Part shown: piece by piece, positions 11,822 to 45,951 of the stretch | How positions within the stretch are numbered: position 1 is the stretch's first letter | Layout: each line of letters opens with the position of its first letter | Origin: a virus | IMG/VR virus record: IMGVR_UViG_3300021089_000387 | Coordinates: 1-49,038 of that record | Reading direction: 5' to 3' (one strand) | DNA: 49,038 nucleotides | Position numbers and translations under genes: made by a program | Notes under the pieces: generated by a model | The model's database searches: none | Told to the model about the DNA's origin: nothing | What the model saw: the letters and a program-made list of their open reading frames with translations, nothing else

Positions 11822-11822
11822 A

Positions 11823-12638: not shown

Positions 12639-12699
12639 AATTATAATTTTATCCTAAATGTAGTAGACTATTTAAAAATCTAAATTGTTTGTTTATTTT

Positions 12700-12722
12700 T
12701 ATAAGTAAATTAATAACTTATA
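12700..12722. promoter_or_regulatory. Inverted repeat in the divergent intergenic region
   Basis: TATAAGT (12700-12706) and ACTTATA (12716-12722) form a 7-bp inverted repeat with a 9-nt spacer, 19 nt upstream of the aminotransferase ATG and between two divergent sugar operons. It could be an operator. In such AT-rich DNA it may be chance. Confidence 0.25.
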
Positions 12723-12741
12723 GTATATAAAACAACATAAT

Positions 12742-13923
12742 ATGAAAAAAATAGACTTATTCAAGGTATTCATGGCTCCAACAGCGGCTGAAGAGGTAAC
12801 TAAAGTAATCAATAGCGGATATATTGGTCAAGGACCTAAAGTAAATGAATTAGAAGAAATGATGAAAACTCATTTTAATCACGACTACGTATCAACGGTA
12901 AATGCAGGTACATCAGCACTTCATTTAGCTTTACATTTATTAAAAAAACCATCAACAAATCAGGTAGTTTATGAGGGTGTTATTGGTTACGATTCAAAAT
13001 GGCCAGGTTTAGAAGAAGGGGACGAGGTTTTAGCCACCCCATTAACTTGTACCGCATCTAATTGGCCTGTATTGGCAAATAATTTAAACATCAAATGGGT
13101 GGATATTGACCCTGAAACTTTAAATATGGATTTAGATGACTTAGCAAGAAAAATCACACCAAAAACTAAAGTTATTATGTTAGTTCATTGGGGAGGTTAT
13201 CCAAACGATTTAGATAAAATAAAAGAAATACAAGAAAGAGCACATCGTATGTATGGTTTTAAACCTGCGGTGATAGAGGATGGAGCACACTCTTTTGGTT
13301 CAACATATAAAGGAAAAAGTATTGGTACACATGGTAATTTAACCATGTTTTCATTACAGGCCATAAAACATATAACATCTATTGATGGTGGGTTACTACT
13401 TTCTCCACATAAGAAGTTAAACGATAGAGCTAGACTAATAAGGTGGTACGGTATTGACCGTGATGGTGATAGAAAAGATTTTAGATGTGAAGCGGATATT
13501 GAGGAATGGGGTTATAAATTCCATATGAATGATGTCTGTGCGACTGTAGGTATTGAAAATTTAAAACATGCTGACGAGATAATTGAAAAACATAAATCTA
13601 ACGCTAAATTTTACGATGAAAATCTTAAAGATGTCGAGGGACTTACATTATTAAAAAGAGAAGATGGATTTGATTCCTCTTTTTGGATTTATTCTGTACT
13701 TGTTAATGATAGGGATAGATTCTATAAACATATGGGTGACCATGGAATATCGGTTTCTCAGGTACACGAAAGAAATGATAAGCATACGTGTGTTAGAGAA
13801 TTTGTTTGTAGTTTACCTAATTTAGATAAAACTATTGGTAAGATGGTATCTATACCAGTTGGTTGGTGGGTAACCCCTGAAGACCGACAATATATCGTAG
13901 ATACAATTAAAAAAGGGTGGTAA
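12742..13923 (+). CDS. DegT/DnrJ/EryC1/StrS aminotransferase, 393 aa
   Basis: PLP-dependent sugar aminotransferase. SGYIGQGPKV (25-33) and NAGTSALHLAL (54-64) are N-terminal family motifs. VIEDGAHSFG carries the PLP-contacting Asp180. SLQAIKHITSIDGG holds the Schiff-base lysine (Lys209). Length matches the family. These enzymes place an amino group on a keto-sugar nucleotide. The keto-sugar maker is not identified here: the nearby epimerase and dehydrogenase are plausible partners. First gene of the plus-strand sugar operon, directly followed by the GNAT-sulfotransferase fusion (stop and ATG adjacent). Confidence 0.9.
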   Translation: MKKIDLFKVFMAPTAAEEVTKVINSGYIGQGPKVNELEEMMKTHFNHDYVSTVNAGTSALHLALHLLKKPSTNQVVYEGVIGYDSKWPGLEEGDEVLATPLTCTASNWPVLANNLNIKWVDIDPETLNMDLDDLARKITPKTKVIMLVHWGGYPNDLDKIKEIQERAHRMYGFKPAVIEDGAHSFGSTYKGKSIGTHGNLTMFSLQAIKHITSIDGGLLLSPHKKLNDRARLIRWYGIDRDGDRKDFRCEADIEEWGYKFHMNDVCATVGIENLKHADEIIEKHKSNAKFYDENLKDVEGLTLLKREDGFDSSFWIYSVLVNDRDRFYKHMGDHGISVSQVHERNDKHTCVREFVCSLPNLDKTIGKMVSIPVGWWVTPEDRQYIVDTIKKGW

Positions 13924-14955
13924 ATGATATTAAGAAAACTAACTGTAGATGATTTAAACTTTTTAATTGAAGTTAGGAATGATGAGTCAACTAGAAAATT
14001 TTTAGAAAATGATTCAGAATTTACAAGTGATGAATGTAAATCATGGTTTGAATCTTATAATCCTTTATGGTTTATAATTGAGGTTAATGAAGAACCTGTT
14101 GGTTATATTAGAACTAATGGTGATGAGGTTGGGTGTGATATACACCCTGATTTTCGTAAAAAAGGATATGCTAGACAAGCCTATAATTTATATTTAGAAA
14201 ATAAAAATTACGCAACTTTATGGGTTTTTGAAAACAATTTCGCCAAAAAATTATATGAGTCATTAGGTTTTGTAGAAACTGGTGAGGTTAAAATAGTTAG
14301 AGGTGAAAAGTACCTTCATATGAAATATATTAAAGAACCTGTTAGTAAGATTTTTATAGGTGGTTTTGGTGGTACTGGAAGTAGAGTAGTTGCCGAAATA
14401 TTTGAAGGTTTCGGATTTTACGTAGGTAGAGAAATTGGTGCGGATTCATTAGATTTTGGTAAAGGTAGTTTTGTGCAAGAATTTGACGCTTCATGGAGAA
14501 AAAAAGATTTTAAAAGAGTAATTAATTTTGTAAAAAAAAGATTAAAAAATCCTGATAAATTTGCGATTAAACATGGGCATTTTATGTTTATAAATGATGT
14601 ACTTAGAAAAGATTTTCCTAAATGTAAAACTGTATATATTATGAGACACCCAATTGATATGGCAGTGAAGAAAAAGTACATACCCCATAATAAGTATGGA
14701 AATATCGGTATTAACGATTTAGACGGTAAGATAAAGTATTATATAAATGAATCGATTAAGTCTTGTAAAGAGGCCGATTTGGTTATAAAATATGAAGACC
14801 TTTGTTTTGATTTAGAAAATCAATTAAAAATTATAAGAGATTTTATCGGTGATTTAAATTTAGACTTACCAAAAATTAACATTAAACCCTCTAAATCGAT
14901 AGGTCAACAAACTGAATTATATGATAAATATGACACATCAATGTTAGGGTATTAA
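13924..14955 (+). CDS. GNAT acetyltransferase fused to a sulfotransferase-like domain, 343 aa
   Basis: Residues 1-135 form a GNAT domain: the acetyl-CoA loop is HPDFRKKGYARQAYNL at 74-89, with a typical N-terminal LRKLTVDDLNFLIEVRND and C-terminal YESLGF. Residues about 141-343 resemble a PAPS-dependent sulfotransferase: IFIGGFGGTGSR (143-154) fits the 5'-phosphosulfate loop and YIMRHPIDMAV (238-248) fits the 3'-phosphate-binding R-x-P region. A glycan acetylated and sulfated by one protein is an inference. It could instead be a P-loop kinase-like domain. It follows the aminotransferase without gap. Confidence 0.75.
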   Translation: MILRKLTVDDLNFLIEVRNDESTRKFLENDSEFTSDECKSWFESYNPLWFIIEVNEEPVGYIRTNGDEVGCDIHPDFRKKGYARQAYNLYLENKNYATLWVFENNFAKKLYESLGFVETGEVKIVRGEKYLHMKYIKEPVSKIFIGGFGGTGSRVVAEIFEGFGFYVGREIGADSLDFGKGSFVQEFDASWRKKDFKRVINFVKKRLKNPDKFAIKHGHFMFINDVLRKDFPKCKTVYIMRHPIDMAVKKKYIPHNKYGNIGINDLDGKIKYYINESIKSCKEADLVIKYEDLCFDLENQLKIIRDFIGDLNLDLPKINIKPSKSIGQQTELYDKYDTSMLGY

Positions 14956-14967
14956 AAATAAGGGACT

Positions 14968-15645
14968 ATGAATATAAAAAATAACCCAATTGAGTATTAT
15001 ATAGAAAAAATAAATAGTAAGGATAATTTTTCATTTACTCGATGGGGAGACGGAGAATGGTTTTGTACTATTGGTAAAAACGGTCAAAATTGTGATGGTC
15101 ATAAATATTTTCCTGAAATGAGGGAATCTCTTAATAATGCATTAAATAACGATAAGGGTTATTATAAAGCAATATGGAATTTAGACCACGGACAGATAAA
15201 AAATATACTTAATATTTTACTACCATTTATAAAAAACAATAATATAAATATTGATTGGGTTAATGCGGGTATATGGGAAGACTCGGCTCTAAGTGGACAA
15301 TTAAAACCATTAGTTAAATCATTAGAAAGTAGAAACTTTGTTATTGTATCAAGTGATAAATTAAAGAAATTAGATATTAAATATACTGATTTTATTAGTG
15401 TACCATCTGTTAATTGTTTTTTAGATAAAGAAAGAATTAAAAGTGATATGATAAAAATGACGGAAAGATACGATGACGTAGTCTTCGGTTTATCATCTTC
15501 TATGGCGACTAATGTTATTGTAGATGAACTTTATGATGAGATTGGCGATAAGTGTACTATGATTGATTTTGGTTCAATATGGGACCCTTTTGTTGGTCAT
15601 ATAGGTAGGTCATACCATCGAGAATATAAAAATAATAAATTATAA
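14968..15645 (+). CDS. GT-D-type glycosyltransferase-like protein, 225 aa
   Basis: The motif FTRWGDGEW near residues 23-31 matches the R-x-G-D-G-E signature of the GT-D fold (DUF1792-type, as in streptococcal adhesin glycosylation). FVIVSSDKL, FGLSSSMATNVIVDEL and MIDFGSIWDPF fit the Rossmann-like core and its C-terminal part. Substrate unknown. It lies in a run of glycosyltransferase genes and follows the fusion protein by 12 nt. Confidence 0.68.
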   Translation: MNIKNNPIEYYIEKINSKDNFSFTRWGDGEWFCTIGKNGQNCDGHKYFPEMRESLNNALNNDKGYYKAIWNLDHGQIKNILNILLPFIKNNNINIDWVNAGIWEDSALSGQLKPLVKSLESRNFVIVSSDKLKKLDIKYTDFISVPSVNCFLDKERIKSDMIKMTERYDDVVFGLSSSMATNVIVDELYDEIGDKCTMIDFGSIWDPFVGHIGRSYHREYKNNKL

Positions 15646-15651
15646 AAAACT

Positions 15652-16335
15652 ATGGTAAATTATATAGTAAGCATATATTGTGGTAGAAGAAGAGCGGGAA
15701 TACACACTGATTTTAAAATGTTATTAAATAAACATATTGAATTTTTATCTAGTAATCCTGATGATATTGATGGTTTTACATTTGTAATTAACAAAACTAA
15801 TATTGAATATGACCAATATTGTATTGATACGATAAATAAATTTATAGAAAAAAGTAGTTTACAAGGAAATTTATTTACTAGGGAAAATGTAGGTGGTTCT
15901 TATGGTGCTTGGGAAAAAGGGATTATGGAAACATATGGTGAATATGATTATTCTTTTTTGATTGAAGATGATTATATACCTAATCTTAAAAATACGGTAA
16001 GTTATTTTTTACAAAAAATAAAAAATCATAGTTTTGTTGCATCATATTGGGATAATAATCACGCGTCGGTATCTAACGGGTTATTTAAAAATTCTTTAGT
16101 TTTACCTACATTAGAAAAACATAATAGACTTTTTGATTTAAATACCCCAAATAAATCGAGTGAATCTTTTACCGACTATCAGAGAAATTTTTTAAATTTT
16201 GTGGAAAGTAAGTTTACAGATATTACTGATATAGGGTATACTGAATTTCAAAGATGGAAGGATGTGGAATATGTTATTTTTACGAATGATAAACTTCCAT
16301 TATTAATAAAACCAATTAAACAATTTTATGATTAA
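15652..16335 (+). CDS. GT-A-type glycosyltransferase-like protein, 227 aa
   Basis: Residues about 78-105 read ENVGGSYGAWEKGI...YDYSFLIEDDYIP, a typical GT-A context in which the EDD replaces DxD. The N-terminus (YIVSIYCGRRRAGIH) is a beta-strand and loop consistent with nucleotide binding. The protein is shorter than most GT2 enzymes. Substrate unknown. It overlaps the following gene by 8 nt. Confidence 0.55.
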   Translation: MVNYIVSIYCGRRRAGIHTDFKMLLNKHIEFLSSNPDDIDGFTFVINKTNIEYDQYCIDTINKFIEKSSLQGNLFTRENVGGSYGAWEKGIMETYGEYDYSFLIEDDYIPNLKNTVSYFLQKIKNHSFVASYWDNNHASVSNGLFKNSLVLPTLEKHNRLFDLNTPNKSSESFTDYQRNFLNFVESKFTDITDIGYTEFQRWKDVEYVIFTNDKLPLLIKPIKQFYD

Positions 16336-17041
16336 CTGTAATCCATATGGTGGTATTTCTAATAGAATGAAATGTATCATATCATCCATAGTGGAGTATG
16401 GAGATATAAATCTTTTATGGAATGTACCTAAAAGTGGTGGTGGAGTTAGATGTGAATTTAATGATTTATATAAAAATATCTTTAATGGTAGTGCGATAAA
16501 TAGTGTATCTGACTGTAAATTTATTCACCATAAAATGAACACACATAATGAAGGAGGTAAAGATAACTTACCATCCGACCTTAAGAAAAGATATATTGAA
16601 GTGATTAAAACTTTAGAACCTATCGATTACATTACAAATAAAATTAAAGAAGAGAAAGATAGGTTGGGCGATTATAGTGCGGTTAGTGTTAGAACTTTTA
16701 GAAGTTTTCCTCACGAATATAACTCATGGGGTAGACATTTTAAAAAAGATAATCTTTTTAAGATAATGGATAAAGTTGAAGGTAAAATTTTATTAACCTG
16801 TGATGACACCGAGACAACAAATTTAATTAAACAAAGATATGATGTTTACACCACACCTAAAAGAACCAAGTTTGGGGATTTTACCACTGTGGAAGGTATG
16901 CAAGATATATTAATAGACCAATACTTAGGTAGTTTGTCTACGGACATTTACGGCACCAATATGAGTAGTTTTTCTGAAATGCAATGGTGGTTAGGGGAAT
17001 GTAAACCTAAATATTATGGGATGTTACTACATCAAAGATAA
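16328..17041 (+). CDS. Fucosyltransferase-like (NodZ/POFUT-type) protein, 237 aa
   Basis: The N-terminus GGISNRMKCIISSI (8-21) resembles the G-G-L-x-N-R-L start of the GT-B fucosyltransferase superfamily, and SVRTFRSFP (near residue 120) matches its V-x-V-R-T/H motif. The later LLTCDDTETTNLI fits a nucleotide-sugar region with Asp-Asp. GDP-fucose as donor is inferred from the fold only; a GDP-linked sugar would be consistent with the GDP-mannose epimerase nearby. It ends two bases before the convergent gene at 17043-17873. Confidence 0.5.
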   Translation: MINCNPYGGISNRMKCIISSIVEYGDINLLWNVPKSGGGVRCEFNDLYKNIFNGSAINSVSDCKFIHHKMNTHNEGGKDNLPSDLKKRYIEVIKTLEPIDYITNKIKEEKDRLGDYSAVSVRTFRSFPHEYNSWGRHFKKDNLFKIMDKVEGKILLTCDDTETTNLIKQRYDVYTTPKRTKFGDFTTVEGMQDILIDQYLGSLSTDIYGTNMSSFSEMQWWLGECKPKYYGMLLHQR

Positions 17042-17042
17042 A

Positions 17043-17873
17043 TTATAACCACTTATCTTTTGAGTTAATTAATAACTGATTATAATTATTAAATCCATAT
17101 ATTTTAGAGCCCGATAATTTTTCCATCCATGAACCAGTTTTCCAAACACCTCTTGAAGCGGATATACAACGAGGACAATTATAAATAAAAACATCACCAC
17201 CAAAGTATGAGGGAATAACCGCGTCACCAGCCGGAGTCAAGTGATGTTCTGAATTTGCTAATACCATAAATTGAACTTCATTATAAGTTTTATCTGTTTC
17301 ATGTAACAATGTTTCAATATTAATAACCGAAGGATGTCTTTTTAAAACTTCTTTATCACCAATATCTAAAGTTCCTTGTCCGGTATCTATTTGTAATTTG
17401 TAGTCATCAGATTTATCAGGCGGTCTTATATAAATTATTTGATAATCATTTTCAAAAGTGATAAACATTTTTTCTAATATTTCACTATTAAAGTAATTAT
17501 GAGGGTGACGACCCCATTCTTTAGTGTTTTTATTATGTATAGTTAAAATTGGTTTATCATACTTATACTTATCATTTTTATAGAACTCTTTGAGTGGTGG
17601 AGGTGTCCATTTATCATTAGTAAACTTAGGGCTATTTAAACCGTAGCACACATTTTTATGTTCTGTAGTTAAGTAATGATGTAAAAGTGGTGGGTCAAAA
17701 TGTTTATTAACCTCAGTATGGTTCGGAGAAAAATAAAACACGGGTCCACTACCAATTTTACTTGCAGTCGATTTTAGATTACCTTCTAAATATTGATGAT
17801 AAGCGACTGGTAGGTAGTACCATAAGATAAAACCAAATTCATCAAAAGCTTCGATATTAGGATTATTTTTCAT
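17043..17873 (-). CDS. Possible glycosyltransferase-like protein, 276 aa
   Basis: I cannot match this to a known family. It has a Rossmann-like C-terminal half (VQFMVLANSEHHLTPAGDAVIPSYFGG), resembling the acceptor or donor site of GT-B enzymes, and a YIRPPDKSD segment in the middle. Two cysteines lie in CPRC near residue 236. It is flanked by glycosyltransferases and shares one base with the small gene upstream, so it probably belongs to the same glycosylation set. Confidence 0.5.
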   Translation of the reverse strand: MKNNPNIEAFDEFGFILWYYLPVAYHQYLEGNLKSTASKIGSGPVFYFSPNHTEVNKHFDPPLLHHYLTTEHKNVCYGLNSPKFTNDKWTPPPLKEFYKNDKYKYDKPILTIHNKNTKEWGRHPHNYFNSEILEKMFITFENDYQIIYIRPPDKSDDYKLQIDTGQGTLDIGDKEVLKRHPSVINIETLLHETDKTYNEVQFMVLANSEHHLTPAGDAVIPSYFGGDVFIYNCPRCISASRGVWKTGSWMEKLSGSKIYGFNNYNQLLINSKDKWL

Positions 17874-18019
17874 TATATGTTTCGATATCTTCGTTTATCA
17901 CTCCACTGTACCTTTTTACTTCTACCTAACATAGATAATTTTGCCACTTTTTGATTGAACGAATTTCTAGTTTCATGTGTGTGAGGGTTACCGTTATTTT
18001 GTTGGTCAATACTACTCAT
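17873..18019 (-). CDS. Small basic protein, 48 aa
   Basis: A longer reading from 18178 lies mostly inside the glycosyltransferase gene, so I chose the ATG at 18019, which overlaps that gene's end by 8 nt, and whose stop shares a base with the next ATG. The 48-residue product is basic and Asn/Gln/Arg rich (ends SDKRRYRNI). No family recognised. The two-sided overlap is the main reason to consider it real. Confidence 0.45.
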   Translation of the reverse strand: MSSIDQQNNGNPHTHETRNSFNQKVAKLSMLGRSKKVQWSDKRRYRNI

Positions 18020-19412
18020 TACTGTTGTTTTTTCTTTTTTTATGTCTTTCCAAGACTGTTTTATGTAATTCCCCCATATTTTGTCGTGCAGATGTAGAGA
18101 CTGACCCCTTACCTTCACTTTCATGGTGGAAATAAATAAATAGTCCCTTAGGGATTCTTTTACCAATAAATCCGGCATCCATCATTTGTACCCATAAGTC
18201 ATAATCTACCCATCCTTTCATTTCTGTACTGTAACCCTCTATTGAATTATAAGCTTCACGGGAATACATAGAACTATTAACTATAAATGGACCCTGTAAA
18301 AGTCTTTCTTTTGACCACTCAGGTCTTTTTTCTAACCCCTGCATTTCACCAACATGAACAGTATCGCAATAAACAGGACTTATTTTAGGGTTTTTCTTTA
18401 TAATGTTAACACCTGTTTTAAGGTAACCAGGATAAATCATATCATCAGCATCTAAAGGTAAAATGTATTCACCTTTACCTTCTCTAACCGCCACGTTTCG
18501 AGTGTCAGAAACTCCAGTATTCTCTTTATGTATAATTCGTATACCTTCCTGACCTTCTAATGAATCTAATTTCATTAAACAGTACTCATCATCTGAACCA
18601 TCATTAACTAAAGTAATTTCGAAATTAGTATAATCTTGGTTATAAACGGATTGTAAAGTAGGATTTAACCTTTTAGCATAATTATAAATTGGCATCGCTA
18701 AAGTTACTAAGGGTTCACCTTTCTTTATTGGTTTTTTATTAAATTTAGTAGGTAAAAGTATAGGTAATTTATCCTCGTACATACTTAAGAATTTTAACCT
18801 ATTATTTTCCCATTCATTATTTGTCTGACCTATTGAAAGGTGGGTTATTCTCACATCATAAAATACTCCAATCTTAACTCCACTAATGTGATTTTTAAAA
18901 CTAAAACCTAAATCATAAAAATGAAATCCATTAAAAGATTCATCAAAAGTATGTTTTATTTTAGTTTTATCTAAAGCGATGAAAAGACCATCAACAATGA
19001 CGGTTTCATCTAATTTACTACCCTTTGATTCACTATATTGGTTAGTCCATTTTTTTTCACCTTGTTGGTGGTTAACTATACCTAACATCTCTTCGGTAAT
19101 TTCCCACCATCTTGCCGACTTAGGAAAAAATTTAGTACCTGCGACCCCTAAAATACCATATTCAGGATTTCTTTTAAAATGTTTAAGTACCTTATTTCCC
19201 CAATTCTTCTTTTCGAAGTAAAGGTCATCGTGACATAATACTACTATATCGTTACTTGCCTTTTCTAAAATTATATTATAAGCCTCACTTAATGAATGGG
19301 TACCTGGATTTTCAAAAGGTATGACCTCCATTTTATGAACACCGCAAGACTGTTCTATATATTCTTTAAACTTAGGGTCAATTTTTTTAGTACAATATCC
19401 AATTGTTATCAT
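18012..19412 (-). CDS. Two-domain glycosyltransferase (tandem GT-A domains), 466 aa
   Basis: The N-terminal domain (1-~230) has ITIGYCTKKID, the acidic VLCHDDLYF, GVAGTKFFP, VIVDGLFIALD and a region around FHFYDLGFSF, typical of a glycosyltransferase whose metal-binding motif is HDD. The C-terminal domain (~235-466) is a classical GT2: VTLAMPIYNYAKRL, SVYNQDYTNFEITLVNDGSDD, ARN-type VREGKGEYILPLDADDM (DxDD), and W-V-D-Y-D-L-W. Both seem catalytically complete, so one protein may add two sugars. It overlaps the small gene at its 3' end. Confidence 0.85.
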   Translation of the reverse strand: MITIGYCTKKIDPKFKEYIEQSCGVHKMEVIPFENPGTHSLSEAYNIILEKASNDIVVLCHDDLYFEKKNWGNKVLKHFKRNPEYGILGVAGTKFFPKSARWWEITEEMLGIVNHQQGEKKWTNQYSESKGSKLDETVIVDGLFIALDKTKIKHTFDESFNGFHFYDLGFSFKNHISGVKIGVFYDVRITHLSIGQTNNEWENNRLKFLSMYEDKLPILLPTKFNKKPIKKGEPLVTLAMPIYNYAKRLNPTLQSVYNQDYTNFEITLVNDGSDDEYCLMKLDSLEGQEGIRIIHKENTGVSDTRNVAVREGKGEYILPLDADDMIYPGYLKTGVNIIKKNPKISPVYCDTVHVGEMQGLEKRPEWSKERLLQGPFIVNSSMYSREAYNSIEGYSTEMKGWVDYDLWVQMMDAGFIGKRIPKGLFIYFHHESEGKGSVSTSARQNMGELHKTVLERHKKRKNNSNE

Positions 19413-34714: not shown

Positions 34715-35827
34715 TTAAATTACGTACATTTGTCTCGGTAACGCTCTGTATTGTAATGATTTATTTAAATTTTCAGCTAAATTAGCTTCTCTTTCCATCA
34801 TCTTATAAGGTCTTAACCTTTCTAATCGATTCATTAATTCTTCCATTAATTTACTCTTTTCGTCTTTAGCTTCAGTGAGTAAAGAATCGTAATCCATTGT
34901 TACTTCAGAATCTGGAGTTTTTAAATTACCACTAAATTTACCTCTTACACGTCCTAAAGTTTCTTTAACATAAGCAACAAACCACTTTCTAACCCAAGCT
35001 TGTGCTGGATTATTTAGTTCTGCCCATAACATTTCATCAATTGGAATATCAGAAGGTAGTCTCACTACATCAGGGTTTTTAGCTAAACAATCTTCTCTAT
35101 CATTAGTTTCGTAATACCAATACCATACTCTATATTCGTTATTTTCTATTGTACCAAAATCAAATTTACCTCCAGGGACATTATAAAGATGTACGGCTTT
35201 TTTTCCTTCAGGTAACGCAGTTACTCTATACGTTAATTCACCACCAATAAGTCTTCGTTTTAAATTTATGTCTTGCATTCTAAGTAAAATGTCAAAAGCG
35301 GGTGTTATCATGTAATTACCTGTTTGTCCCATTTGTGAAAATCCGGCACCACCACCTAAACCTACACCACCCATACCTCCAAATCCACCCATAAATGGGT
35401 CGAAAAAGGCTGCGTCTAATTCTGCTCTTGAAAACCATAATAATTCATTTAATTCTCTACCTGCTGGTATTTCATAAATTTGTTGGTTTGTTTTTAAGTC
35501 GATATAATCTTTTTTGAGTACTGAGTCTCCACCGGCTTGAAGTCCAACTATTTTAGAATAAGAATAGGTGTATTGAGTTTCCCAGTCTAATGAACGAGTA
35601 GTGAATGCTCTTGTGACAGATTGTTCATCTAAGTTCATACCGTAAAGTGATGTCCATTGAGACTCTATTAACCAATCATTCACATATTGAGCGTAATCCT
35701 GAATAGATAACTCTAATAAAGAGTCCATCATTTCATCTTCTATTTCAATACTACGTATTGGTGCACCTAATAGGTGTTTTACACGGGTATAAAGTTTTGT
35801 TCTTTGTGGTTCAACTATTACTGACAT
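34715..35827 (-). CDS. Putative neck protein (gp13-like position), 370 aa
   Basis: The N-terminal helical region (IRSIEIEDEMMDSLLELSIQDYAQYVNDWLIESQW, summarised as an acidic helix pair ending in Y-x-x-Y-V-N-x-W) resembles the start of T4 gp13-type head-completion proteins. A Gly-rich loop (near residues 147-170: MGGFGGMGGVGLGGGAGF) follows, then a region with R-V-W-Y-W-Y-Y. The gene order with the tail terminator and sheath downstream supports a neck role. I cannot exclude another structural protein. A TATTTATT element precedes the ATG. Confidence 0.5.
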   Translation of the reverse strand: MSVIVEPQRTKLYTRVKHLLGAPIRSIEIEDEMMDSLLELSIQDYAQYVNDWLIESQWTSLYGMNLDEQSVTRAFTTRSLDWETQYTYSYSKIVGLQAGGDSVLKKDYIDLKTNQQIYEIPAGRELNELLWFSRAELDAAFFDPFMGGFGGMGGVGLGGGAGFSQMGQTGNYMITPAFDILLRMQDINLKRRLIGGELTYRVTALPEGKKAVHLYNVPGGKFDFGTIENNEYRVWYWYYETNDREDCLAKNPDVVRLPSDIPIDEMLWAELNNPAQAWVRKWFVAYVKETLGRVRGKFSGNLKTPDSEVTMDYDSLLTEAKDEKSKLMEELMNRLERLRPYKMMEREANLAENLNKSLQYRALPRQMYVI

Positions 35828-35868: not shown

Positions 35869-37431
35869 TTAATTAATATATTGTGATGACTCGTTAAAAA
35901 CGTATCTTCCGTTAACTATTTTAGTATTTTTATTCTCAAAAACTTCAGTTCCTAACTTATCACTATGAAAAACTAAATAATCCGTTTTATAGGGTTTAAC
36001 GTTTCCTGTACCGTAAACAATAACTTTACCGTCTTTTTTATTAATACGATTAAATGGTTTAATTTGTATTGTTTTAGTACCTTCAGGTAATGTGACGACT
36101 GCGTCTATACCTTTAATCATATCATCTACGTCACCTAGTTCCCCAACTTTTTTGACATCAGAAGTGTTAAATATTTTTTTTAAACTTACAACAGCGTCAA
36201 CCTCTCTTTTATCTCCAAACTTATTTGTTTTATCTAAACCAGACATTAGAGTTTTAAACGTTGGTGAATCTGCGTTAAAAATAGAGTACCTTAATTCTAT
36301 CAAATATTTGTTAAGTCTATCAACTTCAGTTAGTTGTTGTTTGTGATTTTTATCATTAAAATTAATTGCATCAATACCATATTTTCTTAAATATTTATTT
36401 GTGTCACTCACTAATGTACAAAAAGCTGTGTAGTTGGTATTTAACTTATTAATCACTGAGCGACCTTTTTGTTCATAATCATAAATCCCTGACATTTGAC
36501 CTTTAGAGTATTTGTTTTTTTCATACCAATATTCTGAAAATACTTCTTTTAGTATATCCATTATCGTATACATAAAACGTTTTTTTATCTCAGGATTAGT
36601 ATTAAATAATCTGCGGTACGTCTGTACTTGATTTCTATTACATCCTGCACTCGCACCTTCAGAAATAATACTTTTAACTATCTTCGTTTCAGTTAGTTTT
36701 TTTGATGTTTGATTTAAATATAATTCATTAACATAATCCCAATTGATTATTGTCCAAAAATTTCTAACATATTCATCTCTCTTATTACGGTATTTCAAGT
36801 AATAAGCATGTTCCCATGTATCTAAACACAATAATGGGTATCCACCATTTTTAACCACATTCATTAATGGGTTGTCTTGATTTGGGGTGGACATTATTTT
36901 TAATTTACCATTCTTAGTTAAGACTAACCAAGTCCATCCTGAACCAAAGTTTTTTATTGCCTCATTACTAAATATTTTTTTGAATTTAGGAAAATTACCA
37001 AAATCCTTAATTATTTTGTCATAAATTTCACCTTGAGCTCTTTGTTTTTTGGGTGACATTATTTTCCAAAAAAGTGCGTGGTTAAATGCTCCGCCCGCAT
37101 TGTCTCTAATTGTTTTATTGTATCGTGAAATACCTCTTATTAATTGTTCTAATTCAATGTTACCGTCAACTCTACTCGACAATGCATTATTTAATTTCTT
37201 AACGTATCCTTTATAATGTTTGTTATAGTGAGTATCCATAGTTTCTGAATCTATAAATCTCTCTAAGGCAGAATAAGAGTACGGTAATGTTTCTATACCA
37301 ATTTTTTTCATTTCTGTTAAAATTTGTTTGGGAGTGTGCGAGATATTAACGTTAACTTCTGTTAACTTTTCTCGGCTATTAATTTTATGTTCAATCGTTG
37401 AGATTTTATTTATTAATCTTTTGAACTTCAT
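35869..37431 (-). CDS. Mn-type superoxide dismutase fused to a nuclease-like domain, 520 aa
   Basis: Residues about 46-240 form a complete Fe/Mn SOD. The four metal ligands are present: His68 (THYNKHYKG), His118 (FNHALFW), Asp204 and His208 (LDTWEHAYYLKY). GSGWTWLV is intact. A Gly in the AGGAFNH position and Gln185 in STPNQDNPLM match MnSOD rather than FeSOD. An N-terminal tag of about 45 residues precedes it. After residue about 250 comes a long extra region; GIDAVVTLPE..TIQIKPF (Asp443, Gln456, Lys458) resembles the core of PD-(D/E)xK nucleases. The second domain is only a motif-level call. A TATTTATA element lies 12 nt upstream. Confidence 0.85.
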   Translation of the reverse strand: MKFKRLINKISTIEHKINSREKLTEVNVNISHTPKQILTEMKKIGIETLPYSYSALERFIDSETMDTHYNKHYKGYVKKLNNALSSRVDGNIELEQLIRGISRYNKTIRDNAGGAFNHALFWKIMSPKKQRAQGEIYDKIIKDFGNFPKFKKIFSNEAIKNFGSGWTWLVLTKNGKLKIMSTPNQDNPLMNVVKNGGYPLLCLDTWEHAYYLKYRNKRDEYVRNFWTIINWDYVNELYLNQTSKKLTETKIVKSIISEGASAGCNRNQVQTYRRLFNTNPEIKKRFMYTIMDILKEVFSEYWYEKNKYSKGQMSGIYDYEQKGRSVINKLNTNYTAFCTLVSDTNKYLRKYGIDAINFNDKNHKQQLTEVDRLNKYLIELRYSIFNADSPTFKTLMSGLDKTNKFGDKREVDAVVSLKKIFNTSDVKKVGELGDVDDMIKGIDAVVTLPEGTKTIQIKPFNRINKKDGKVIVYGTGNVKPYKTDYLVFHSDKLGTEVFENKNTKIVNGRYVFNESSQYIN

Positions 37432-37443
37432 TTATTTTTTTAT

Positions 37444-37451
37444 TATAAATA
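37444..37451 (-). promoter_or_regulatory. Candidate late promoter (TATTTATA)
   Basis: Minus-strand TTATTTATAATAAAAAAATAA, ending 12 nt before the ATG at 37431. It suggests the SOD fusion is expressed with virion genes. Confidence 0.5.
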
Positions 37452-37469: not shown

Positions 37470-39233
37470 TTATCTTCTAACTGATATTTCATTAATAATT
37501 TGTTCCATTATGTCCCCTCTCTCCTCATTATCACCCATAACCGTTTCAAAAATATTTTTCTTATTAGATAAAATATCATATATGATACCTTCTATTGAGT
37601 TTTCAAAAATTGGGTAGAATACGGAAACATTAGATTTTTGTCCGTACCTATACGCTCTGTCTTCGGCTTGTGAATGGTCAGAAGGAACAAATGATAAATC
37701 ATTCATAACTACTGCCTCTGCTGCGGTAAGAGTTATACCAACACCTGCAGCTTTTAAGTTACCAACAAAAACTTTTATTTTATCATTTTCTTGAAATTGG
37801 TCTACAGAGTTTTGACGAGCAACTTTACTCATCTTACCGTCTAATTTAACTGCCTTTTTACCAAAGTGGTCCGCAATTCTATTTAGTGTGTCAGTAAAGT
37901 TGGTAAAGACAATTACTTTCTTTCCTTGTTCAATAATGTTTTCAACTAACTCACAAGTTTCTTTTATTTTATTTTCGGCAATTATTTGTCTGACTTTCAT
38001 TAACATAGAAAATTGTACGGTTAATGATTTTTTCTCCCTATCATCCTCCATCCAATCGTAGTATTCACCCATAAGTGCCATATACTCTTTAGATTTTAAA
38101 TTTAAATAAACGGGAGTGATAATCTTATCAGGTAAATCTAAAATATCCTGTTTTAATCTTCTAAGAACATGCGTTTTGGTTCTATCTCTTAACTCTAATA
38201 AGTTAGACGCCCCATTTACGTTCCACACTTTACGATTACCCACATTAAATTGATAACCTTCGCAGTACCTAATTACGTACGCCATCCAATTATAAGCCAC
38301 AGGTGATTCTACTAAATTTAATAAATTATAATAATTAATTGGTCTTGATGTCATTGGAGTACCCGTTAGTAACCATACCTTACCTATTGAATTTATTATG
38401 TCGTTAATTAATTTAGTTCTTTTTGCTTGAACATTTTGAATGTAATGTGCCTCATCGACAACAACTAAATCAAACCCTTCTTGCAATATTATTGATTCTT
38501 CTTTGTTTTTTATATCATGAAAATTCTTTAATATGTCATAGTTAATAATAACAAAATCGGCACTTTCCCATTTCTTACCTTCGACTATTGATATGCTTTT
38601 TTCGGTATAATTTTGAATTTCACGTTTCCAATTAATTTTTAAAGATGCTGGACAAACAATTAATACTCTTTCGGCTCCCGACTCTAAAGCAGCAATGACG
38701 GTTGAGGTAGTCTTACCTAACCCCATATCATCAGCTAAGATATATTTCTTATGACTCGCTAATTTTTCAATAGATTCTATTTGATGTTCTAACGGAGGTC
38801 TATGAGAGTATTTAGTATAATCTATTTGAACCTTTTCAATTTCCTGTGATTTTATTAGTGCAACACGAGGTAACCAAAATGAATGTAATTTTTCATTTTC
38901 AAATATTTTACCCCATATGTGAAAAGATTTATCTTTTTCGACCAAAAGTTTTTCAATGTAAACTTTTTCAGGTACTTTTGTAAGAAGTTTATCTTCCATC
39001 ATCTTCTTACCGAAGTAACTATCTAAGTCCACCCACTTTCTGGCTATTTTAGGGACTAACTCATGATAACTATTGATGTAGTCGGCTTGAGCCCTTGTTA
39101 ATTTAAAATGTTTTTGTTCTTTAAATTTTTTTTGAATAGATTGTATATAATTATTGAACCCATCGTATACTTCTAATGTACGTTGCGCCCTAACTTCAGG
39201 TATCTTAGATAATTTATCTTTATTACTTTCCAT
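37470..39233 (-). CDS. SNF2-family helicase-like ATPase, 587 aa
   Basis: Full SNF2/SF2 set: motif I LADDMGLGKT (166-175), motif II DEAH (260-263), LTGTPMTSRP (289-298), and late VVMNDLSFVPSDHSQAEDRAYRYGQK with the family-typical Q-A-x-D-R-x-x-R-x-G-Q. The N-terminal 120 residues are unlike the core and may bind DNA or partner proteins. SNF2 enzymes translocate on double-stranded DNA. In T4 similar jobs are done by UvsW and Dda, but this is SNF2 type. It lies downstream of the divergent promoter region at 39234-39279. Confidence 0.92.
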   Translation of the reverse strand: MESNKDKLSKIPEVRAQRTLEVYDGFNNYIQSIQKKFKEQKHFKLTRAQADYINSYHELVPKIARKWVDLDSYFGKKMMEDKLLTKVPEKVYIEKLLVEKDKSFHIWGKIFENEKLHSFWLPRVALIKSQEIEKVQIDYTKYSHRPPLEHQIESIEKLASHKKYILADDMGLGKTTSTVIAALESGAERVLIVCPASLKINWKREIQNYTEKSISIVEGKKWESADFVIINYDILKNFHDIKNKEESIILQEGFDLVVVDEAHYIQNVQAKRTKLINDIINSIGKVWLLTGTPMTSRPINYYNLLNLVESPVAYNWMAYVIRYCEGYQFNVGNRKVWNVNGASNLLELRDRTKTHVLRRLKQDILDLPDKIITPVYLNLKSKEYMALMGEYYDWMEDDREKKSLTVQFSMLMKVRQIIAENKIKETCELVENIIEQGKKVIVFTNFTDTLNRIADHFGKKAVKLDGKMSKVARQNSVDQFQENDKIKVFVGNLKAAGVGITLTAAEAVVMNDLSFVPSDHSQAEDRAYRYGQKSNVSVFYPIFENSIEGIIYDILSNKKNIFETVMGDNEERGDIMEQIINEISVRR

Positions 39234-39279: not shown

Positions 39280-39795
39280 ATGAGTAATAGAAAGATACCA
39301 ATAACGCGTTTAGAAAAGTTTTTCGGTTCCGAGGATTTTGGATTAGAACAAAATATGGGTCGTGAATGGCTTGAAGGTGATATGCATTTCACCGTTGTTC
39401 TATATAAGGTCGATAGACAAAAAACTAAAACCGATGATGTGTATGGAGAATCTTTAGAGGACGGAATACAGTTTTTACCTCCTGTTGAATTTAAAGGATA
39501 CGTAACTATCGAGACACCTGAAAATCAAAATTATTCTAATGCTAATTTATCACAATTAGAACCAGGTAACTTAAAGGTTGGTGTTTACCAAGACGCGTTA
39601 GACGAGTTAAATATTGACATCGATTATGGCGATTATTTAGGTTATTATGAAACTGAGGACCGAGTAAGGTATTACTCTGTTGTTAATGATGGTCGTGTTG
39701 TTAGCGACAATAAACATACTTATGGTGGGTATAAACCATTTTACCGAAGTATAATTGCGGCACCTGTTAATGACGGGGAATTTAGAGGAATATGA
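39280..39795 (+). CDS. Neck/tail-connector type structural protein (gp14-like position), 171 aa
   Basis: Pattern E-K-F-F-G-S-E-D-F...GREWLEGDMHFTVVLYKVDRQKTKTDDVYGE and Y-G-D-Y-L-G-Y resembles small structural proteins of contractile phages lying just upstream of the tail terminator. No enzyme motif. The T4 order 13-14-15-18-19 is roughly kept in this window, so a gp14-like neck role is plausible. It overlaps the next gene by 4 nt (ATGA). Confidence 0.5.
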   Translation: MSNRKIPITRLEKFFGSEDFGLEQNMGREWLEGDMHFTVVLYKVDRQKTKTDDVYGESLEDGIQFLPPVEFKGYVTIETPENQNYSNANLSQLEPGNLKVGVYQDALDELNIDIDYGDYLGYYETEDRVRYYSVVNDGRVVSDNKHTYGGYKPFYRSIIAAPVNDGEFRGI

Positions 39796-40352
39796 AAAAA
39801 TTACTAAAAGAAATAAATTTTATTAAAACCCGTATGTCACATATGTGTGAAGGTATTGAAGGTGAAAAAGTTGTGTGTGATGATTGTGGGTGGTCTTGGG
39901 ATTTAAGTGACGGTGGCCACGACCCGTATATCTGTCATAAATGTGGTAACGATAATCAAGAAGTTAATTATATAGGTAAAAAAGTTATGGTATACTATAA
40001 CTTACATAAACACACATTTTCAGTATCATATAAAAATAAAATTGTAATGTATGCCGATTATGTTAAATTAAAAGATGTTGAATTTAGAGTACGACAAGGA
40101 GGTAAAGAAAAAGTAAGAGATGAAATGAGAAAAAATGTACATGCCTTTGTGATTGGAACTTTAATGGATTTTTGTACGTTTCCGTGTGAAAACTTACCTG
40201 ATGAGCCAAATGAGAATGTGATAACGTATAATCCGTATAAGTATGACTCATTCGTTAGAAAAGATGGTGAGGAACCAATTTACAATGCTAACGAGGTTGA
40301 AATGATTAACTCTAAGAATAAAGTATTTTTTATAAGTGAAACTGTAAAATAA
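39792..40352 (+). CDS. Zinc-ribbon protein with phage-conserved C-terminal domain, 186 aa
   Basis: C29-x-x-C32 and C48-x-x-C51 form a zinc ribbon (VCDDCGWSW...YICHKCGND). The following domain (about 62-120) has VMVYYNLHKHTFSVSYKNK and DVEFRVRQGG...RKNVHAFVIGTL, a pattern found in several phage proteins without known function. The N-terminus is a short basic helix. It is translationally coupled to both neighbours in the neck/tail cluster (4 nt and 1 nt overlaps). Nucleic-acid or protein binding is inferred. Confidence 0.65.
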   Translation: MKKLLKEINFIKTRMSHMCEGIEGEKVVCDDCGWSWDLSDGGHDPYICHKCGNDNQEVNYIGKKVMVYYNLHKHTFSVSYKNKIVMYADYVKLKDVEFRVRQGGKEKVRDEMRKNVHAFVIGTLMDFCTFPCENLPDEPNENVITYNPYKYDSFVRKDGEEPIYNANEVEMINSKNKVFFISETVK

Positions 40353-41676: not shown

Positions 41677-44600
41677 ATGGCGACATCTAACAAAGTATTC
41701 GTATCTCCGGGTGTTTATACATCAGAAAGAGATTTAAGTTTTGTAGCACAAAGTGTAGGAGTAACAACTCTTGGGTTAGTAGGTGAAACAATTTCGGGAC
41801 CAGCATTCGAGCCGATTTTCATTACTAATTACGATGAGTTCCAATCCTATTTTGGTGGTACAAATCCAACTAAATTTGTAAATACTCAGATACCTAAGTA
41901 TGAGGCGGCTTATATAGCTAAGTCTTATCTACAACAATCAAATCAATTGTTTGTAACAAGGGTACTTGGATTATCAGGGTATGACGCAGGACCTTCATGG
42001 TCAATAACAACTATCGGTAACTTAGATAGTTCAGGAACGACCGCTACGGGACAAACTGGACCATTTACAGTGTCATTCTCCGGAGTTTCAGGAACATCTA
42101 CAAGTGTGGCTATCACCAATTATGGTGGTCTACCCGCTTCAATTCAAGGTGTGATAACAGATTCATATACAACATATACTGGCGGTGAATCAACTTTACA
42201 ATCAGATATGGAAGGTTATTTCTATTCTGAAATTGTAAACAACGCAAATTCGGGACAAACCTCCTATTTTTGGGGAGCAGTCGATTCGACCACATATGAT
42301 AATATTACAGGAGTAACTACTACACCTAATTACGTAAGTAACGTAAATGTTTTAGGTGTTGAAAATATACAGTTTGAATCAATAGAATTAACTGACTCAG
42401 TAAACGACCCATGGTATTACGCATTATTTACAGAATCTAATGGTGTTTATAATGGTACAGGTTTCGGCTTTGGTGTAACCACGTTAGTAAATACGGTTGG
42501 TCTCGAATATCAAGGGACCGCTCAAGTTTACGTAACTAATTATACAGGTACACCGTATAATGATTATCATGATGTGGTAGTAGCAACTTTACGTTCACGA
42601 GGTATCGATACATATACTTCTGATGATGGTCCTGTATATGAAGTATCAGGATTAACTGATGTTAACATGGATTGTACGGGTGTTTACTCGGAGGTTAATA
42701 CTAACCCTTTCTCTACATTTGGTCTTTCAGCAACAACTGCAAATGGAGATAATTTCTTTTTCCAAACATCATTTAACGTATCTAATTCCAATTACCTATC
42801 AAAGGTATTCGGAAAATCGAATTTTGCAAAACCAAAATCTGAAGTACCTTTATTCGTAGAAGAAGAATATTATAACTTATTAAATACTGGTTATAGATTA
42901 GGTCGTGTTCGTGGTTTAAATTGTACACTAACTGATTTACCAAGTGCGAGACAAGATTTAGGAACTAACACAAGTATTGGTTGGTATTTAGAACAATATC
43001 AAACACCTGAAACTCCATATTTTGTTTCAGAACTGAGAGGTAACCAAGTTTATGATATGTTTAAAGTTATAACAATATCTGACGGTAATGCTGCAAACAG
43101 AGAGGTAAAAGTTTCAATTATGAATATCTCATTTAATAATGGAACCTTTGATGTTGTAGTACGTGATTTCTTCGATACAGACGCAAATCCTGTAGTTTTA
43201 GAGAAATTCACTAACTGTACGATGGATATCAACCAAAATAGTTTTGTAGCTAAGAAAATTGGTACATCTAATGGTGAATTTGAATTAAGGTCAAGATTTA
43301 TAATGTTAGAAATGAATGAAGATGCACCTATGGATTCACTACCTTGTGGGTTTAGAGGATATCAAACTAGACAGTATTCAGGGGTTAAATCACCATTCTT
43401 AGAATATAAAACAAAATATGACACACCGGGTGAAGTTATTTGGAACCCACCATTTGGTGCGGCTTCAGGTACAGACAATGAAACAAGAAGTTCAGGTGAT
43501 AGAGTAAGAAGAACATACTTAGGTGTTTCTAACACCGCAGGTATAGATGCGGATTTCTTATCATATAAAGGAAAACAAAATCCTACTAATTTAGCGACCG
43601 CTACTGATTCACAACCATGGTCTTACCTAACTAAAGGTTACCATATGGATTCAGGAGCAACGGTTATTTTAATTTCATCTAACTATGTTACTTCAGGTGA
43701 AACCGCTTTTGAAGTTGGTGACGCTAGTTTTGACGGGGAACCTCAAAGTGAAAGTAACCCATATTATAGATTAAATGCACGTAAGTTCACTGTTGTACCA
43801 TCAGGAGGTTTTGACGGATGGGACATTTACAGGCAATATAGAACTAATGGTGACAGGTACCAATTAGGAGCTGCTGGATTTAGAGCAGGTGCTGCACCAT
43901 CAATAACTTATCCAACCGCAACAGGGTGGGGAGCATTTAAACAAATTGTAGGTCCAGATAAATTAACTTGGGCTAACACTGATTATTACGCTTACTTATG
44001 GGGTCAGTACACATTCAATAATCCTGAATCAGTTAACATTAACGTGTTTACTACACCTGGTATTGATTATGTTAACAACTCAAATTTAGTTGAGTCAGCA
44101 ATTGACATGATTGAACAGGACAGAGCGGATTCAGTTTATATTTGTACAACACCTGATTATAATATGTTTACACCTTCTTTAGGGAATTTCGATACGGACT
44201 TCATTTATCCTGAAGAGGCGGTAGATAATTTAGAGGATACAGGAATTGACTCTAACTACACTGCAACTTATTACCCATGGATTCTTACAAGAGATACGGT
44301 TAATAATACACAGATTTATCTTCCACCAACAGGTGAAGTTGTTAGAAACTTAGCATTAACAGACAACATCGCTTTCCCATGGTTCGCATCAGCGGGTTAC
44401 ACGAGAGGTTTAGTTAATTCTGTTAAAGCACGTAAAAAACTAACACAAGAAGATAGAGATACACTTTATCAAGGTAGATTAAACCCGATAGCAACCTTCT
44501 CTGATGTTGGTACAGTTATTTGGGGTAACAAAACTTTACAGATTAAAGAATCTGCACTTGATAGAATAAATGTTAGAAGATTATTACTACAAGCACGTAA

Positions 44601-44871
44601 GTTAATTTCGGCAGTAGCGGTAAGATTATTATTCGAACAAAACGATGAACAAGTTAGACAAGAGTTCTTAGACTCAGTTAATCCTATCTTAGATAGTATT
44701 AGAAGAGACAGAGGTTTGATTGACTTTAGAGTTACAGTTTCAAATACACCTGAAGATTTAGACTCTAATACGTTAACAGGTAAAATTTACTTGAAACCAA
44801 CAAGAGCACTTGAATTTATAGATATTGAATTCTTGATTACTCCTACAGGAGCATCTTTTGAAGATATTTAA
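41677..44871 (+). CDS. Contractile tail sheath protein (gp18-like), 1064 aa
   Basis: The N-terminus (FVSPGVYTSERDLS; G-x-x-G-L-V-G-E-T-x-x-G-P-A-F-E-P; YDEFQSYFGG) and the C-terminus (about 900-1064, with AFPWFASAGYTRGL, GRLNPIATF, RRLLLQARKLI and a final beta domain) are sheath signatures. T4 gp18 is 659 aa. The extra roughly 400 residues lie in the middle as added surface domains. Sheath contraction drives tube penetration. Followed by a hairpin at 44895-44916. Confidence 0.95.
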   Translation: MATSNKVFVSPGVYTSERDLSFVAQSVGVTTLGLVGETISGPAFEPIFITNYDEFQSYFGGTNPTKFVNTQIPKYEAAYIAKSYLQQSNQLFVTRVLGLSGYDAGPSWSITTIGNLDSSGTTATGQTGPFTVSFSGVSGTSTSVAITNYGGLPASIQGVITDSYTTYTGGESTLQSDMEGYFYSEIVNNANSGQTSYFWGAVDSTTYDNITGVTTTPNYVSNVNVLGVENIQFESIELTDSVNDPWYYALFTESNGVYNGTGFGFGVTTLVNTVGLEYQGTAQVYVTNYTGTPYNDYHDVVVATLRSRGIDTYTSDDGPVYEVSGLTDVNMDCTGVYSEVNTNPFSTFGLSATTANGDNFFFQTSFNVSNSNYLSKVFGKSNFAKPKSEVPLFVEEEYYNLLNTGYRLGRVRGLNCTLTDLPSARQDLGTNTSIGWYLEQYQTPETPYFVSELRGNQVYDMFKVITISDGNAANREVKVSIMNISFNNGTFDVVVRDFFDTDANPVVLEKFTNCTMDINQNSFVAKKIGTSNGEFELRSRFIMLEMNEDAPMDSLPCGFRGYQTRQYSGVKSPFLEYKTKYDTPGEVIWNPPFGAASGTDNETRSSGDRVRRTYLGVSNTAGIDADFLSYKGKQNPTNLATATDSQPWSYLTKGYHMDSGATVILISSNYVTSGETAFEVGDASFDGEPQSESNPYYRLNARKFTVVPSGGFDGWDIYRQYRTNGDRYQLGAAGFRAGAAPSITYPTATGWGAFKQIVGPDKLTWANTDYYAYLWGQYTFNNPESVNINVFTTPGIDYVNNSNLVESAIDMIEQDRADSVYICTTPDYNMFTPSLGNFDTDFIYPEEAVDNLEDTGIDSNYTATYYPWILTRDTVNNTQIYLPPTGEVVRNLALTDNIAFPWFASAGYTRGLVNSVKARKKLTQEDRDTLYQGRLNPIATFSDVGTVIWGNKTLQIKESALDRINVRRLLLQARKLISAVAVRLLFEQNDEQVRQEFLDSVNPILDSIRRDRGLIDFRVTVSNTPEDLDSNTLTGKIYLKPTRALEFIDIEFLITPTGASFEDI

Positions 44872-45099: not shown

Positions 45100-45951
45100 A
45101 TGAGTTTAAAGAAGGTTATTAGAGAATTTTATCACGAAAAAAAATTACAAGAAGGGTTTGACCCTGAAGGTAATCCCGATTTAAAGTATTATGCTTTTGA
45201 TTGGGATGATAATATTGCGACTATGCCGACACAAATCATACTTTTGTCCGATGAGGACGAGGAGGTGGGAATGTCAACAGAAGACTTCGCCGACTATCGA
45301 GGTATGATTGGTAAAGAACCTTTTGAATATAAGGGTAAAATGATTGTAGGGTATGCCGATGACCCTTACAGAAATTTCGGAGTTAAGGGTGATAACGCCT
45401 TTATAGTGGACTCCCTATTAGCAAAACCAGGTCCATCGTGGAATGATTTTGTTGAAGCGATAAACGGGGGGTCAATTTTTTCAATAATCACTGCAAGAGG
45501 TCACACACCATCGGTATTACGTGAAGCGATTTATAATATGATTGTGACTAACCATAACGGTATTAGCAAGGAGTCTTTAATTGACAATCTTAAAAAGTAT
45601 CGTAATATGTCGGGTGACGAGGAAAAGGATTCGTCCGTAATGATTAATGATTATTTGGATTTAAATAAATACCATCCTGTAACATATGGTGAAGGTAACG
45701 CTGCTGACCCTGAAGAGGGTAAAATTAAAGCTTTAAGGAGTTTTATCGCGTATGTGAAAGAAATGAGTGAAAGAATTGGTAAAAAAGCCTTTCTTAAAAA
45801 TGATATAAAAAATAATTTCATACCTATGATTGGGTTTTCTGACGATGACCCAGGCAATGTAGAAAAGATTAAAGCATTTTTAGATAAAGAATATAAAGAT
45901 AAACCAGTTAAAATGTATTTAACTAAAGGAGGAGATAAAAAAGAAGTATAA
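45100..45951 (+). CDS. HAD-superfamily phosphatase-like protein, 283 aa
   Basis: YAFDWDDNIATMP contains motif I (Asp34, Asp36). SIITARGH fits motif II with Thr. IGFSDDDPGNVEKI, near residue 248, fits motif IV with the double Asp. An N-terminal helix of about 20 residues precedes. The fold is that of small phosphatases acting on nucleotides or polynucleotide ends. Its place between sheath and tube genes is odd for metabolism. A virion-linked role is possible. Confidence 0.78.
   Translation: MSLKKVIREFYHEKKLQEGFDPEGNPDLKYYAFDWDDNIATMPTQIILLSDEDEEVGMSTEDFADYRGMIGKEPFEYKGKMIVGYADDPYRNFGVKGDNAFIVDSLLAKPGPSWNDFVEAINGGSIFSIITARGHTPSVLREAIYNMIVTNHNGISKESLIDNLKKYRNMSGDEEKDSSVMINDYLDLNKYHPVTYGEGNAADPEEGKIKALRSFIAYVKEMSERIGKKAFLKNDIKNNFIPMIGFSDDDPGNVEKIKAFLDKEYKDKPVKMYLTKGGDKKEV

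Follow-up and report, generated by a model that had tools for sequence, protein, structure and literature searches.

Why should a phage carry a superoxide dismutase (SOD) and a nuclease-like domain in one gene? The question is raised by a gene in IMG/VR virus record IMGVR_UViG_3300021089_000387, of which the whole 49,038-nucleotide stretch was analysed (hereafter the window). Open reading frame (ORF) reading, Pfam matches and full-length relatives place the gene on the minus strand at 35869-37431, with an ATG start and 520 codons for amino acids, exactly as delimited in a preliminary description made from the sequence. We propose, with a probability of about 0.75, that its product is a late cargo polyprotein in the virion of a T4-type water phage, in which a tag and a linker would direct packaging, the S77 prohead protease would cut, and SOD and nuclease would be freed in the head and injected. 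The full-length SOD-nuclease fusion occurs in more than 30 viral contigs at 47-100% identity and is therefore not a chance product; the search of phage genomes for the same two-domain order that the preliminary description had suggested thus gave a positive answer.

The dismutase domain spans residues 46-240 (36712-37296, minus strand, as for all parts of the gene given below). Pfam recognizes Sod_Fe_N at residues 47-126 (3.6e-21) and Sod_Fe_C at residues 133-236 (6e-39), both above cut-off, and the top matches in a PDB search are SODs (6e-57). A complete Mn-type SOD with the metal ligands His68, His118, Asp204 and His208 and the Mn-type Gly and Gln185 had been claimed, and every element of this claim holds. 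The four ligands are retained on re-reading the frame and are invariant among 22 non-redundant full-length relatives (the set to which residue conservation refers below), as are Gly113-Gly114, Gln185, His72, Tyr76, Trp206, Glu207 and Tyr211. We take Gly113-Gly114 and Gln185 to be the Mn-type second shell, Glu207 to form the dimer bridge with His, and Tyr to be the gate. The 520-residue protein carries an intact Mn-type Fe/Mn-SOD domain, for which dismutase activity is predicted. Many further SOD matches of about 40% identity in the phage collection resemble host or prophage sequences (bacterial names, short unannotated records) and were not used as phage relatives.

The C-terminal part consists of a helical subdomain (residues 259-400; 36232-36657) and a PD-(D/E)xK nuclease-like domain (residues 405-520; 35872-36219). 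A full-length AlphaFold2 model was poor (pLDDT 57, shallow alignment) and was used merely to motivate a model of residues 256-520, which reached an overall pLDDT of 76 and from which the helical subdomain was delimited. When this model was compared with the PDB by Foldseek, as the preliminary description had advised, matches 1-19 were all PD-(D/E)xK nucleases, led by I-Ssp6803I and Hjc; the top match, 2ost, has E 1.4e-3 and probability 1.00, and none lies below E 0.001, which makes the matches moderate in strength. The D...QxK pattern noticed earlier (Asp443, Gln456, Lys458) is invariant in the relatives, and Glu410, the first acidic residue of the PD-(D/E)xK core, and Asp437 can be added to it. 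No Pfam, PHROG or PADLOC profile matches this domain, and a PHROG search with the 520-residue protein returned nothing significant. The PD-(D/E)xK superfamily is diverse, and profiles often miss its members. Because no profile matches, membership rests on fold and residues; on the model, assignment of residues 405-520 to a PD-(D/E)xK-type fold appears well supported. The domain shares with Hjc resolvases and I-Ssp6803I the fold and an E...D...QxK series on corresponding core elements, but sequence identity is 9-16% and its accessory helical domain is unlike theirs.

All five residues are also matched in a homologue that stands alone in a 735-kb phage (LR756501) and is 27% identical; it begins exactly at the predicted linker cut (residues 256-258). 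No further close relatives of this homologue were found, and a scan of genome contigs gave no bacterial relatives of the C-terminal domain. In BFVD, the domain matches A0A6J5L953 (33%, E 2e-21) and A0A8D9CCA0 (1113 amino acids; 22%, E 2e-15). The former has 501 residues, is named 'superoxide dismutase [uncultured Caudovirales phage]' and seems to be this very fusion, so that such a protein would be in a database already under the name 'superoxide dismutase' only; neither entry name mentions fusion, linker sites or packaging.

The segments between these domains carry the argument for a precursor. The extension noticed ahead of the SOD is real (residues 1-45), and its residues 1-40 (MKFKRLINKIS...ILTE; 37312-37431) resemble a capsid-targeting tag in their conservation pattern: residues 1-16 are conserved, residues 19-34 are variable, and a conserved (I/L)xE follows. 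The T4 prohead protease gp21 cuts after L/I-X-E (PMC9026906). Family comparison gives a first such site at residues 23-25 (LTE; 37357-37365), where position and sequence turn over among relatives and some (I/L)xE is nearly always kept; a second lies directly ahead of the SOD domain at residues 38-40 (LTE; 37312-37320), with E40 present in 21 of the 22 type-A relatives. The inter-domain linker (residues 241-258; 36658-36711), which from the same comparison we interpret as an internal tag copy, holds two more, LTE at residues 246-248 (36688-36696) and ISE at residues 256-258 (36658-36666), where the C-terminal part begins. E248 is invariant with I, L or V at -2 and T, N, K, D, L or S as the middle residue; E258 is invariant with I or L at -2 and S, T, V, N, M or I in the middle. 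Since the Glu never changes while x varies, the linker sites look as protease sites would be expected to. In 18 proteins, just three conserved Glu columns combine a varying x with I or L at -2 (V in one or two cases), namely E248, E258 and E369.

A scan with an SOD profile recovered more than 500 viral SOD relatives. The best 80 were pooled with four relatives found earlier, and the complete, non-redundant proteins among these numbered 43. Each of the 43 N-linkers and 35 C-linkers contains (I/L)xE at least once. The density per residue is 0.088 in N-linkers and 0.052 in C-linkers, against 0.006 in SOD and 0.013 in C-terminal domains, so that the motif is 4-15 times rarer within domains than in linkers. 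Counts also exceed those in shuffled linkers (115 vs 53, z 10.9, for N-linkers; 65 vs 19, z 11.8, for C-linkers), and the controls [IL]xK and [IL]x[D/N] show no enrichment. No such linker follows the SOD in proteins where it is the last domain. These patterns suggest that the N-terminal tag and the linker between the domains belong to a single type of module in which prohead-protease sites are conserved.

The relatives also differ in what is attached to the SOD. Twenty-two have the architecture tag-SOD-nuclease; others have an HExxH domain before SOD alone (about 363 amino acids), or HExxH-SOD followed by one of four other C-terminal domains. HExxH is kept in all 20 long N-domains (20 of the 43 relatives). 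One C-terminal partner, C2, gives a weak E/D/QxKP match to the nuclease (hhalign probability 42%, E 2.6e-4), and for two others no relation to the nuclease was found. In a 296-kb phage contig (L201), the C-terminal module of a 507-residue HExxH-SOD fusion also exists as adjacent free-standing genes that begin MKIIITESQYK...; the fusion module is 74% identical to one of them (E 5e-68), and the alignment starts at residue 7 of the free-standing gene, covering most of its tag. Because the fusion linker aligns with that tag, the linker in L201 was once an N-terminal tag, and the joining of tagged genes would therefore be the way in which the polyprotein grew. Five paralogous tagged small genes are arrayed around this fusion (L201:2551-6468), whose C-terminal module belongs to the same family; we read the arrangement as a gene-fusion event caught in place. 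The locus thus appears to evolve by exchange of tagged modules around the SOD. In the assemblies L018, L019 and L020 (also L151 and L152), the SOD protein goes out of frame near residue 46, upstream of an intact SOD-nuclease frame; this may be real or an assembly error.

The surroundings of the gene are those of a T4-type phage. PHROG matches in the window include a UvsW-like helicase, a neck adaptor, a tail sheath and a baseplate hub, and DNA polymerase and tail tube were assigned from their sequences. The conserved upstream neighbour is the helicase (37470-39233, minus strand; PHROG 62, 2.9e-108), and the downstream one is the neck or head-tail adaptor protein (34715-35827, minus strand; PHROG 211, 7e-11); the order helicase, SOD protein, neck, with the polymerase beyond, is the same in all eight loci read gene by gene. 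The window ends short of the S77 protease and gp23-type capsid genes, which were identified in relatives: a 198,834-bp contig collinear with the window encodes both (E 1e-24 for the prohead protease, which is T4-type, and E 4e-63 for the capsid protein), and the protease is present in all four tested contigs of at least 270 kb. The capsid protein has LINE/AS (here and below, a slash follows each site) near residue 60, where T4 loses 65 residues, and its closest cultured counterparts (about 42%) are those of Flavobacterium phage immuto and Microcystis phage Mel-JY01. The sheath protein in the window (41677-44871) has 1064 amino acids, with the sheath-family match confined to its C-terminal 290 residues.

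A late-type promoter had been proposed ahead of the gene, and the motif concerned, TATTTATA (37444-37451, minus strand, 12 bases from the ATG), is real and conserved upstream in relatives; late expression is predicted from it. In the phage family it lies upstream of 39 ORFs against 1.8 expected, and TATTTAT occurs at most 60 bases upstream of 41 of 43 SOD-locus genes, with a background of 1.9%. It precedes scaffold, protease, sheath, tube, neck and SOD genes and is absent before those for DNA polymerase, helicase, dUTPase, ThyA and DHFR, and also before the capsid gene, itself downstream of the scaffold gene; for this survey, some of the gene names beyond the window were given by visual reading of the sequences. 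ORFs with an early (I/L)xE site more often have TATTTATA upstream in three genomes (odds ratios 2.7-4.1).

In T4, short N-terminal propeptides act as capsid-targeting sequences that bring internal proteins into the prohead, and the cargo is ejected into the host (PMC9026906). The window protein has the marks of such cargo: like the gp21-cut IPI, IPII, IPIII and Alt, it has a short N-terminal propeptide ending in (I/L)xE and a late-type motif, and S77 protease and gp23-type capsid genes are found in its relatives. The T4 internal proteins are single units, whereas here a tag lies within a single chain that comprises an Mn-type SOD and a PD-(D/E)xK nuclease, domains not described for T4 cargo. 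From this comparison we infer the following course. The polyprotein would be synthesised late in infection and enter the prohead core, with N-terminal tag and linker as capsid-targeting and processing signals. The gp21-type S77 protease would cut after (I/L)-x-E in both, freeing SOD and nuclease separately within the head, and both would enter the host along with the DNA. There, the SOD may remove superoxide as infection starts, or it may instead protect packaged contents; the nuclease may act on host DNA, rival DNA or DNA junctions. The earlier guess that the protein may be carried in the virion gains support from the tag and linker sites and from the head genes of the relatives.

The nearest concept is that of phage polyvalent proteins, multi-enzyme polypeptides that are probably packaged and injected and have been likened to polyproteins (Iyer et al. 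2017, PMC5512222). They too combine several enzymatic domains with swappable partners in one chain. An embedded metallopeptidase has been proposed for their release, and SOD is absent from that paper (PMC5512222); the window protein differs in having no peptidase domain, and its release sites fit the prohead protease. A packaged viral SOD has a precedent in a245r of the algal chlorovirus PBCV-1, a Cu/Zn SOD that is a late gene product and is packaged in the virion; the superoxide burst that follows infection is lower in association with it (PMC7019647). Late expression and packaging are likewise predicted for the window protein; a245r belongs to an unrelated SOD family and a eukaryotic virus, and a prohead-protease tag is not described for it. 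This precedent makes a role of the phage SOD at infection plausible.

Several observations weigh against a cleaved cargo protein. The (I/L)xE motif is short and degenerate, and because the proteins are related, their linkers do not count as independent observations. [IL]xxE is likewise enriched in linkers (z 7.2 and 6.5), probably due to LL/II doublets. A helix predicted with confidence contains the conserved (I/L)xE at E369, which presumably escapes cutting. HExxH-SOD forms are without an obvious N-terminal tag, and targeting there would need an internal tag. Finally, the SOD linker aligned to N-terminal tags of the same genome scores just modestly above interior segments; because this direct alignment discriminates weakly, it is the L201 paralogues and the conservation of the sites that support the tag argument.

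The strongest competing explanation, which we nevertheless consider improbable, is an uncut bifunctional auxiliary enzyme that stays unpackaged in the infected cell, its SOD easing oxidative stress in replication and its nuclease acting on DNA. Both catalytic centres appear intact, a viral Fe/Mn SOD has been interpreted as a stress-relief auxiliary gene (PMC12542629), and PA5oct and Vibrio 2.275.O are examples of other jumbo phages with an unfused SOD. Such an enzyme would leave unexplained why E248 and E258 are invariant around a variable x in an otherwise variable linker, and likewise the swapping of partners at tagged boundaries, the late motif and the L201 tag match. A working dismutase with attached nuclease, as originally envisaged, hence probably gives way to a precursor that is cut apart at conserved prohead-protease sites. 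Distinctly less probable is a neck or tail virion protein or DNA-end processing factor, perhaps cut at the sites, whose nuclease trims or resolves packaged DNA and whose SOD fold is mainly structural. The gene adjoins the neck gene in every locus read, and junction resolvases and a homing endonuclease are nearest in fold; but every SOD catalytic residue is invariant, second-shell Tyr76 and Gln185 included, and the SOD persists where another module takes the place of the nuclease and in the 363-residue forms that have none, so that the whole protein is unlikely to serve a fixed role at DNA ends. A toxin or defence role, also suggested at the outset and here taken as directed at the host or rival phages, is very hard to credit: an injected nuclease could conceivably attack host or rival DNA, but there is no PADLOC match, no immunity-gene partner was recognised, and the locus keeps its place among head and tail genes and replication genes.

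If tags direct cargo in these phages, the pattern may extend beyond the SOD locus. In the 199-kb relative, (I/L)xE occurs 164 times in the first 41 residues of proteins against 121±10 expected, with no enrichment of control motifs, and [IL][STNK]E[SGQA] occurs 26 times against 7. N-terminal (I/L)xE sites are kept between orthologues in 79 of 88 cases and interior ones in 257 of 388 (p 4e-6); in a more distant pair (G012), the difference is small (31/44 vs 161/240). A near-identical tag stands on three proteins with unrelated bodies. A 792-residue protein with DHH-type, peptidoglycan-binding and GH19 domains from a relative of the window (G009 contig 152570-154948, L047:12570-14948, minus strand) has KINE/SKGLNE/Q between domains and is probably a second tagged polyprotein; with its two inter-domain (I/L)xE sites, it implies that the SOD protein may not be the sole cargo polyprotein.

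Further tag-like sequences were observed. On the G009 contig, the gene at 193307-194383 has an internal tag copy (LTEDEMIELIQRIVKEQ) at residue 144 in addition to N-terminal (I/L)xE sites. Cultured Flavobacterium phage immuto encodes a neighbouring protein pair (L131:7588-8888) with a near-identical 26-residue tag holding two such sites; it is the nearest cultured phage with tags of this style, and a match to the SOD was not found in it. Candidate cargo in the window includes a zinc-ribbon protein (39792-40352) with the tag-like N-terminus MKKLLKE/IN... and a DWDD-motif protein resembling HAD phosphatases (45100-45951) that begins MSLKKVIRE/FYHEKKLQE/G... The window also contains, at 10739-19412, a gene cluster for a nucleotide-sugar epimerase, UDP-glucose dehydrogenase, aminotransferase, acetyltransferase and glycosyltransferase.

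We lean, less firmly than for the window protein itself, towards a general T4-type scheme in which tagged-enzyme cargo polyproteins are split in the capsid by the prohead protease; here the SOD would be the fixed core around which nuclease, metallopeptidase and other modules are exchanged, and would act as an entry effector against a superoxide burst. If so, this would be, to our knowledge, the first predicted injected SOD from a bacterial virus. Sites of the capsid maturation protease would double as polyprotein cleavage sites of the phage, and a single gene could load several enzymes into one head. Whether infection sets off a superoxide burst which entering phages have to counter would become testable, and a simple sequence rule, (I/L)xE in tags and linkers, would allow injected effectors of T4-type phages to be predicted independently of homology.
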